The translations under genes and the position numbers were made by a program. From assembly GCA_012798155.1 (NCBI GenBank), contig JAAZNR010000222.1, positions 1 to 11,142 of the forward strand: a DNA stretch of 11,142 nucleotides, given 5' to 3'. The stretch's first letter is position 1. The number at the start of each line of letters is the position of its first letter. The notes below the pieces were generated by a model. It did not search any database and was not told the DNA's origin. It saw only the letters and a list, made by a program, of their open reading frames with translations. Shown piece after piece: positions 3,295 through 6,315 of the stretch. The stretch comes from Thermogutta sp. (GTDB taxonomy: Bacteria > Planctomycetota > Planctomycetia > Pirellulales > Thermoguttaceae).

Positions 3295-3432
3295 TATGGG
3301 AATCTGCTGCCGGGTTCAGACGATGGCGAGACTGGCGGGATGAGTGATTCCCGGTTTGCCCCACCACGTGACGCAGCGTGGCAACCGTCGATACCAGACG
3401 TTCTTCAACGATGGGGACTACGCGGCTTACCT

Positions 3433-3598
3433 CTGGACTTTTGCAAATTGTGGTGACAAGTTCTCGTCCGCCTTGGAAGAGGCTTATGGGGAGGGCAATT
3501 AGCCGCGAAAACGGCTTGCCGTGATTGCCCAACTTCACCAAGCCCTCACCCGCTGCCCCTCTCCCAGATGGAGAGGGGAGCAGTTTGCAAAAGTCCAG
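3433..3598. mobile_element. 166-bp MITE-like element with terminal inverted repeats and 6-bp target duplication
   Basis: The left end CTGGACTTTTGCAAATTG (3433-3450) and the reverse complement of the right end (3581-3598) match at 17 of 18 bases. TTACCT flanks both sides (3427-3432 and 3599-3604), a perfect 6-bp target site duplication. The interior has no transposase and only a chance reading frame to a TAG at 3500. It contains two foldable stretches: GGGCAAT (3493-3499) pairing with ATTGCCC (3524-3530) around an inner AGCCG/CGGCT stem, and CCCCTCTCC/GGAGAGGGG (3556-3578). It fits a non-autonomous element moved in trans by a DDE transposase of unknown family. Confidence 0.85.
3556..3578. repeat. 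9-bp perfect hairpin inside the MITE
   Basis: CCCCTCTCC, loop CAGAT, GGAGAGGGG. An outer CTG/CAG pair extends it with a two-base bulge. A short TTT follows at 3584-3586. It could stop transcripts arriving from ricT, but its position inside an inserted element suggests it belongs to the element's own structure. Confidence 0.6.
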
Positions 3599-3833
3599 TT
3601 ACCTGCAACTGACGGACGCTAGGCAGTGCTTCCTTTCTCCATCGCTCGGAGGGCAGGATTGCGTTCGCAGGCCGCGGAAGGGAGGCCGACCACGAAAGCT
3701 CAAAACCTCTTAAACTGCCAAAACAAGCATCGTGTCCCCGGAGTTCCGCCAATTCCACCAGCACAATGCCTTTCACACCGCGCCCTGGGCAAGCCCCGGC
3801 GCTAAACCCCTCACCACTTATACCATTCACCGC

Positions 3834-4634: not shown

Positions 4635-4664
4635 ATTCTAGTCAAGGCGGATGGCCGACCGCAA
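4635..4664 (-). promoter_or_regulatory. Candidate promoter of the DUF1080 gene
   Basis: On the minus strand TTGCGG (4659-4664), 18 bp, then TAGAAT (4635-4640). Predicted transcription start is near 4628, giving a leader of about 54 bases to the ATG at 4574. The -10 and spacer match those of the candidate at 1460-1489. Confidence 0.4.
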
Positions 4665-4710
4665 GCCGGCGGTCCCCGCTTTCCGCTCTGCCGTTTTTGG
4701 GTGCAGCCTG

Positions 4711-5404
4711 CTGAAGTTCTTCGGCCCGCAAACACGGCTGGGGGACATCCACCCCGGCGCGGCGGACGAGTTCTGCCGCCGGCTGCAAGCCGGTGAGAGA
4801 AATAAGCGGCAGGGAAAAGCCCTCAGCCCGGCGACGGTCGCCAAGCGGATCGAACGGGTCAATGCGTTCTTCCGAGACGCCCTACGGCGGCGACTGATCG
4901 CCGAGAACCCGCTCGAAGAGGTTCGGTTACCCAAGGTGAACGACGAGGATCGGCGGGCTTACGTGTCCGTGGAAATCGTCGAGCGGCTGATCGAGGAAAC
5001 CCCCGGCGCGGAATGGAAATTGCTCTTGGCAATGGCAACGGGAATCGACCAAGGCGGCGGAGCGGGGCTGGTGGGGGAACGTCAACCTGCGGCAAGGATT
5101 GCTGCGGCTGATAGCCCACATCGGAGAGCAGCCTTGGCCCAGACTGTGGCATGTGCGAGCAAGCGCCGAAACGGACCTCGTGGCTCGCTTTCCCGTCCGC
5201 GTCGTGGCGGAATGGCTGGAAAATACCCTCCGAATTGCGGCCAAGCATTACCTGTGGGTGACGCGGGAGGATTATCGGAGGCCGGCCGACGAGGAGTGCA
5301 GCGTGGCGCAAGCAAAAAGCGAAGCACGGTTGAAGCAAAAAGCGAAGCGGACAGCACCGGACCCACTAAGCCCCGACCGGCCAAACCGCGACGTAAACCC
5401 TTGA
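4711..5404 (+). pseudogene. Tyrosine recombinase/integrase pseudogene (truncated, frameshifted, internal deletion)
   Basis: Two frames together give a recombinase relic. The first (from LKFFGPQTRLGDI at 4711 to about 5040) is the SAM-like core-binding domain: LSPATVAKRIERVNAFF, DALRRRLIAENPLEEV and WKLLLAMA. The match continues one frame over from about 5060: NVNLRQGLLRLIAHIGE, PWPRLWHVRASAETDL and AAKHYLWVT, ending at 5404. These fit the HxxR-like histidine/arginine segment and the nucleophile Tyr of KHYL. The stretch carrying the first catalytic Arg (LARYGGLRCPSE-like in relatives) and some 80-100 residues is missing at the junction. The usual N-terminal arm-binding part before 4711 is also not recognisable. 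It cannot be active. It reads toward the tRNA-fMet gene 61 bp away, on the 3' side of that tRNA. Confidence 0.78.
5310..5348 (+). repeat. 16-bp direct repeat in the recombinase tail
   Basis: AAGCAAAAAGCGAAGC occurs at 5310-5325 and 5333-5348, a 23-bp period. Twenty-three is not a multiple of three, so if this arose by duplication it changed the frame of the Lys/Ala-rich tail. Simple Lys/Ala codon composition is an alternative explanation. Confidence 0.55.
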
Positions 5405-5465
5405 GTACGGCGGACTTAGGCTCATGACGGCGGGATGTGGCGAAAAGGCGGAAAGGGGGATAAAA

Positions 5466-5538
<73 letters not shown>

Positions 5539-5632: not shown

Positions 5633-6315
5633 CGTGCCCCCCTCATCACGATCAAGAGAGGTTCCACGGCAAACGACTTCCACTCCGATCGCCAAATACC
5701 GTGCCCTTCGGACGGACCCGGCCGCCGGCTCCGGCCTGGGCACAGCGCGAGCCGCGTTACCGATGCTTCGACGGCCGTCGCTTCCCGATCTTCGGGATGA
5801 TGTCAGTTTCTCACCGCGACCTCCCGCCCCGGAGCAGACGGCGGCGACCTTATCCGCGGTAAGCAAACATTTACGATTCCGTCCAGCGCGGAACACATGG
5901 CAACGGCCGCGGCCGGATTCCTTTCAGCCACAGTCCAGGCATAGCCGACCCGGCGGACGGAACCGGGCGGGTAGGGTTCGCCTTGCTGTGCTCCGGTCGC
6001 CCCGCTCCCTTTGCAGAGCAAGGCCGAGAGCTAAAAACCCCTGCCCCCCCTTTCGGTACCATGAGGGGACATTTCTATTGGTTTCAAAACGGGGACACTT
6101 CTATTGGTCGCTGACATGCGGTCCGCGGTTTGTTGCGGCGGCGCGTGGGCGTCGTTACCATAATCAGCAACGCATCGGCTCGAACGGCCGCCGGGCCGTT
6201 CCGCGTGAACTGGCACGGCGTCGCGGTTTTTCCAAAGGGTGAGGCCGCGCTGCCCCCTGCGGTTCGCCGAAGATTTCCCCGATGCTTTTTTACCGGGAAA
6301 AGAAAGGGTTGAAAG
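5633..6315. other. 683-bp spacer without a convincing gene
   Basis: Several reading frames exist on both strands but none shows a recognisable domain, a good ribosome site or protein-like composition. The stretch contains small perfect hairpins: TCCCGA/TCGGGA with a 3-base loop (5783-5797), and GAACGGCC, GCCG, GGCCGTTC (6182-6201), the latter lacking a T-run. It also holds the 18-bp repeats at 6065-6108. A structured RNA or a regulatory leader for the oxidoreductase gene is possible but not shown. I saw no clear promoter for the gene at 6316. Confidence 0.5.
6065..6108 (+). repeat. Two 18-bp direct repeats, 26-bp period
   Basis: GGGGACATTTCTATTGGT (6065-6082) and GGGGACACTTCTATTGGT (6091-6108) differ at one base and are separated by 8 bases. 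Sequences of the GGGGACA-TTCTATT kind are often seen beside insertion-sequence remnants in many bacterial genomes (from memory, not checked). No transposase is seen next to them. Confidence 0.7.

Follow-up and report, generated by a model that had tools for sequence, protein, structure and literature searches.

A short element in one contig of a Thermogutta sp. assembly raises the questions of whether it is a genuine mobile element, what its interior consists of, and which transposase moves it. The stretch of DNA analysed (11,142 bp; hereafter the window) is one whole contig of an assembly of 4.29 Mb in 988 contigs, estimated to be 87.85% complete.

A non-autonomous element inserted into a transposase relic

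The element lies at window positions 3433-3598 with TTACCT on both sides (Table 1), and its inverted ends (TIRs), CTGGACTTTTGCAAATTG and CTGGACTTTTGCAAACTG when both are read inward, agree at 17 of 18 bases. The position, 166-bp length, end match and abutting TTACCT copies given in the original prediction were all reproduced, and the two internal foldable stems it had claimed are both present in the predicted fold of the element (z = -6.8, a value to which the TIRs also contribute). Being short (166 bp), bounded by 17/18 TIRs and devoid of a transposase frame, the window copy has the features of a MITE; the earlier description of a complete element without a transposase thus holds for a TIR element that has real target duplications and is non-autonomous.

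Table 1. Features of the window copy and of the sequence that it interrupts, in window coordinates.
Feature	Position	Strand	Basis
Relic of IS200-like (Y1) transposase N terminus	3323..3432	+	Match to the Y1 transposase in L158
Left target duplication TTACCT	3427..3432	+	Identical to 3599-3604
Left TIR, core CTGGACTTTTGCAAA	3433..3447	+	17 of 18 bases shared with right end when taken as far as 3450
Left arm, decayed triplex motif	3464..3495	+	Column-by-column alignment with G014 and G032, whose arms are intact
Spacer between arms, with small stem AGCCGCGAAAACGGCT	3496..3542	+	Fold and alignment
Right arm, triplex motif with G/C-rich second loop	3543..3577	-	Same blocks as Table 1 of PMC4666352
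Right TIR, core CTGGACTTTTGCAAA on minus strand	3584..3598	-	End match
Right target duplication TTACCT	3599..3604	+	Identical to 3427-3432

The original prediction had also taken continuity of the host reading frame across the excised element as independent confirmation of the boundaries. Such continuity is literally present, but the supposed host gene is a decayed relic, which over 32 residues is 66% identical to the Y1 transposase in L158 (E 1.6e-12) and has an in-frame TGA at 3341-3343, the seventh codon, just upstream of the insertion. Past the element the frame continues, but the Y1 similarity stops within a few residues. Because the host frame is a relic with an upstream TGA, its continuity is consistent with the boundaries yet weak evidence for them. 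No orthologous empty site corresponding to the window copy was found in the relatives G001-G003, whose matches to its surroundings were confined to portions of the PSP1 gene upstream and 42 bp of downstream sequence.

Copy number and target duplications in the source assembly

Allowing up to one mismatch, the 15-base end CTGGACTTTTGCAAA has 88 forward and 90 reverse matches in the source assembly (G000), compared with 1 + 1 for the same pattern read backwards, which suggests that the assembly may hold about 89 copies of the element. When the whole element was used as the query, 40 of 110 candidates were scored; most of these spanned the element from its first to its last bases, and a few ran on into the target duplication. 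Copies read with both ends amounted to 67 records, representing 66 insertions out of the approximately 89 estimated, as one locus (L064) gave two overlapping records with a 46-bp partial duplication of the left end; the other 23 or so were not fetched or are cut by contig ends. Fifty-six of the 67 records are exactly 166 bp long. The 64 records of 164-168 bp have a mean pairwise identity of 94.2% and a median of 5 differences from their consensus (3 in the window copy); given this divergence, and since no two of the 64 are identical, the copies do not represent a very recent burst. Also identified were variants with internal duplications, at L064:2583-2794 (212 bp) and L074:1457-1643 (187 bp), both flanked by exact 6-bp target duplications.

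Among the 66 records with flanks (covering 65 of the 66 insertions), target duplications were exact over 6 bp in 38, over 7 bp in 7 and over 5 bp in 2; the 19 records without an exact 5-7-bp duplication comprise 7 in which the 6-bp copies differ by one mismatch and 12 with none of these. In a cross-copy control, in which the left flank of one copy was paired with the right flank of another, 35 of 4290 pairings gave an exact 6-bp match. Beyond the duplication, left flanks share a mean identity of 26% over 20 bp, and target sites are AT-rich, with TTATAA as the majority bases. The search for copies with different 6-bp flanks proposed in the original prediction therefore yielded many, and the target duplications are real; the outcomes it had named as speaking against an element, namely an absence of other copies or similarity running on into unrelated flanks, did not occur.

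Precise insertion is further illustrated by a paralogous empty site. Five or more copies (L016, L023, L186, L192, L195 among them) are inserted at, or within two bases of, a common position in the terminal sequence of a second palindromic repeat, which is 110 bp long. The filled site in L186 reads CCTGCGCAGTAA, element, CAGTAAAACTAA, whereas the unfilled sites in L030 and L062 read CCTGCGCAGTAAAACTAA; CAGTAA is thus present once in the unfilled sites and on both sides of the element in L186, so that insertion duplicated CAGTAA exactly. The element is therefore a MITE present in many copies, inserting precisely with duplication of 6 bp and sometimes 7 bp. The second palindromic repeat has the ends CTTAGTTTTACTGCGCAGGAT and was seen at L028:196-305, L028:550-659, L030:1709-1818 and L062:2343-2452.

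The element interior contains predicted intrastrand triplex motifs

Elements of relatives (G003, G014, G032 and G035) share 72-82% identity with the window element, and that of G068, which was found through its ends, aligns with them over its full length. Exact 6-bp duplications were present in 6 of the 14 paired elements of relatives that were tested, corresponding to 6 of the 9 with a length of 165-167 bp; those of G003 tested beyond the first (L055, L103, L116) had no exact duplication. In the G014 element and in both G032 elements, the interior is composed of two inverted arms of the form CCCTCTCCC-loop-GGGAGAGGG-loop-GGGTGAGGG, with no more than one mismatch; the left arm has a TTA loop and the right arm a G/C-rich loop. 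These blocks are those of the intrastrand triplex motif (TMECO or PIT motif) described by Holder et al. 2015 (PMC4666352), and judged by sequence the G014 and G032 interiors are inverted pairs of this motif. Both arms are also present in the G068 element (loops GTT and CTA), both have decayed in G035, and G003 and the source genome retain one. The right-arm second loop comprises 5 bases in the source genome, G003, G014 and G032, or 3 if the stem is taken to be one pair longer. Compared with the insertion sequences that we saw, the MITE interior resembles none; its identifiable content is these predicted triplex motifs.

In the window copy, the right-arm blocks on the minus strand are CCCTCTCC(C), GGGAGAGGG and GGGTGAGGG, with one mismatch, and the decayed left arm corresponds to the TTA-loop arm of G014 and G032. 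The same asymmetry holds throughout the source genome, where the right arm has been kept and the left has decayed: with up to two mismatches allowed per block, the right arm is recognisable in 63 of the 67 copy records (exact in 26), and the left arm in 2, the window copy not among them. Fifty-five exact hairpins were counted in the assembly; 40 of the 67 copy records hold one each, so that these 40, and not all 55, can be assigned to the MITE. No triplex motif outside the MITE was found in 153,194 bases of source DNA, a sample drawn around MITE copies. Among the relatives, the hairpin half was present in 31 of 60, and the reversed control in none. At 20 of 21 relatives' loci that have the motif and lack the MITE ends, the motif is complete at the matched place; a convergent inverted pair occurs at 3 of the 21 (L047, L049, L060), with one TTA loop in L047 and L060, and around the triplex motifs of these 21 TIR-free loci no convincing inverted repeats were found. 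Since the motif also occurs in relatives at loci without these ends, it exists independently, and the ends most likely captured a pair.

These elements resemble the E. coli TMECO in possessing the same three blocks; in G014 and G032, moreover, a TTA-loop motif and a G/C-loop motif are combined in inverted orientation, much as in the five inverted pairs of E. coli, which according to the available text of PMC4666352 always join a TTA-loop to a CCG-loop motif. They differ in that the right-arm second loop is not CCG, and in that the motif here lies inside TIRs and target duplications and is multiplied as part of a transposon. In its available text, the 2015 description reports that the motif is associated neither with transposons nor with phages or plasmids and has no remnants of a transposase or integrase next to it, and names horizontal transfer as one possibility (PMC4666352); the present elements tie the motif to mobile DNA.

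The exact 15-base end was detected in 19 of the 119 genomes of the family, and G008 and the genus g9 have elements that combine the same ends with a different interior, indicating that the triplex pair is not required for mobility. The g9 elements (L092, L104, L105, L110) are 237-792 bp long. Their ends are similar and their interiors, which are AT-rich, different, and all four lack an exact 6-bp duplication. In G008, ten 22-bp palindromes (L163-L172) consist of two element ends fused and nothing else, 7 of them exact and 3 with one mismatch, and among the 119 family genomes they occur in G008 only. Three are flanked by exact 6-bp duplications, one by an exact 7-bp duplication, four by duplications with one mismatch and two by neither. 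These sites are probably scars of internal deletions between the two TTTTGCAAAA copies of one element, aided by its hairpin, and offer a testable model for the collapse of palindromic elements.

Beyond these genomes, phage records gave no match to the element, and three plasmid records gave short matches confined to the triplex arm. Six IMG/VR matches to the 18-base end have one common surrounding sequence and no partner end, and were therefore dismissed as chance.

Longer elements with the same ends encode an IS701-like transposase

In G018, G007 and G004, an IS701-like frame or its relic comes after unpaired copies of the 15-base end. An open frame of 449 residues belongs to a 1432-bp element (L120/L127) on JAJRSE010000087.1 of genome G218 and scores 180.8 bits against the NCBIfam IS701 model NF033540 (cut-off 150); the relics L106 and L108 match this model below the cut-off. 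Flanks of the G218 element (TTATAT and TTATTA) agree at 4 of 6 positions. A 1358-bp element, L128 (SYLG01000142.1), has both 15-bp ends exact and an exact TTAGAC duplication, its transposase frame being interrupted by a stop, and L133, with ends of the type CTGAAGTTTTGCAAA, has an exact GTTTAA duplication. Altogether, the six longer elements in which both ends were found are 1358-1612 bp long; two (L128 and L133) have an exact 6-bp duplication and four do not, and none of the six has an exact 4-bp duplication alone. Longer elements with these ends in other genomes thus encode an IS701-like DDE transposase. The original prediction had suggested that a full-length IS sharing the end might be found; such elements exist, but what they share is 15 bp, and they reside in other genomes, not in the source assembly.

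Membership of the IS701 family was considered from the available part of PMC2266710, which gives a length of 1400-1550 bp, a target duplication of 4 bp for almost all elements, and an end consensus that does not represent the whole family. The G218 element passes the NCBIfam cut-off and, at 1432 bp, falls inside this range, and the ends agree with the consensus ---YACT-Y--YR at 6 of 7 positions in L120, L128 and L131 and at 5 of 7 in L133. Unlike the published family, the related elements described here have a 6-bp duplication and G, not Y, at end position 4, and the lengths of the six with both ends exceed its range on either side. Given the published 4 bp and the 6 bp seen here, we refer to the partner as IS701-related with a 6-bp cut and not as IS701 in the strict sense, and it suggests an IS701-related group with this property.

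No IS701-like transposase was found in the source assembly, which is 87.85% complete and in 988 contigs, or in G003, so that no genome was seen to hold both an intact partner and the MITE. The IS701 model, run on 11 genomes, gave weak matches in 7, none above the cut-off and none in these two. The L120 protein was used to search 17 of the 19 genomes that have the exact end, the exceptions being G089 and G090, in which the end matches have one common flanking sequence and no partner end. Together with G218, from which the protein comes, this made 18 genomes, 6 of which matched; 5 of the 17 have transposase remains, a partly circular tally in that 3 of the 5 (G004, G007, G018) entered the list through the ends of such elements. 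A search of 392 genomes of the phylum at E 1e-60, a sample without a positive control, gave no match to the L120 transposase.

Mobilisation and origin of the element

We favour, with a probability of about 0.88, the reading that the element is a MITE moved by an IS701-like transposase acting in trans on its 15-bp ends, with an interior pair of triplex motifs that was captured and then spread. An ancestral pair of transposon ends would have captured a pre-existing pair of triplex motifs; the IS701-like transposase, known from relatives and probably responsible for movement of the MITE, would recognise the 15-bp ends and join the element across a 6-bp stagger at AT-rich sites (TTATAA), and transposition would then have scattered the triplex motif. 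In size, TIRs, lack of coding capacity and presumed mobilisation in trans, the element resembles Nezha, RUP and NEMIS, MITEs named in the available part of PMC3733652; it differs in having only 15 bp in common with its presumed partner and in its triplex-motif interior.

The limited extent of this common sequence bears on whether a different DDE transposase mobilises the MITE, the shared 15-bp ends being convergent or coincidental. The MITE was indeed seen to resemble the longer elements in these ends only, no cognate transposase was found in the source assembly, and the 4-bp duplication published for IS701 (PMC2266710, as available) would fit poorly; against this, the identical 15-bp end adjoins IS701-like frames or relics in G004, G007, G018 and G218 and stands at both ends of L128, and L128 and L133 have exact 6-bp duplications, which together leave such a coincidence very improbable. 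Selection, in turn, might have kept the triplex motif as functional cargo, serving local rearrangement or regulation, with the MITE as its delivery vehicle. The widely recognisable right arm of the source copies (63 of 67) and the association of the motif with genome instability in E. coli (PMC4666352) would agree with such a role, but the left arm has decayed in nearly all of the same copies, the pair is dispensable for mobility as judged from the G008 and g9 elements, and the available text of PMC4666352 attributes to the motif neither promoter nor terminator activity nor a general regulatory role. We therefore regard functional cargo as an improbable account, if a somewhat better one than coincidental ends.

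The inverted pair of hairpins, their many copies and the IS200-like Y1 relic at the insertion site recall REPINs, reportedly described by Bertels and Rainey in 2011, and they could be explained if the element were a REPIN-type unit and a RAYT (Y1) transposase moved it. Conserved TIRs and 6-bp duplications, however, indicate a DDE transposase; the source assembly gave a single Y1 match, and of the 24 loci retrieved around Y1 matches only one holds the hairpin (up to two mismatches). On these grounds, movement by a RAYT was rejected, and it is the least probable of the accounts considered, with hardly any weight left to it.

Mobilisation in trans by the IS701-like transposase hence being preferred, a motif-carrying MITE with target duplications, a paralogous empty site and a candidate partner offers a concrete and testable route for the spread of the triplex motif, at least in this lineage. 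Capture by the ends of DDE transposons might even be a general route, in which case the bare inverted pairs of TTA-loop and G/C-loop motifs in E. coli and elsewhere would be remnants or donors of composite MITEs, and the partner would represent an undescribed IS701-related group with 6-bp duplications; this extension is tentative, and we think it more likely wrong than right.

Other features of the window

An Rfam scan of the window at the gathering threshold identified a tRNA alone. Beside this tRNA gene (5466-5538, minus strand) lies a weak XerC-like match (4651-5427, plus strand; 21.4 bits, cut-off 371), and this arrangement possibly marks the relic of an integrated element. By eye, a near-identical direct repeat of GGGGACAYTTCTATTGG is seen at 6065-6107, and short tandem duplications with units of about 24 and 27 bp are seen at 1142-1189 and 1325-1377, respectively, the former located at the end of a reading frame.
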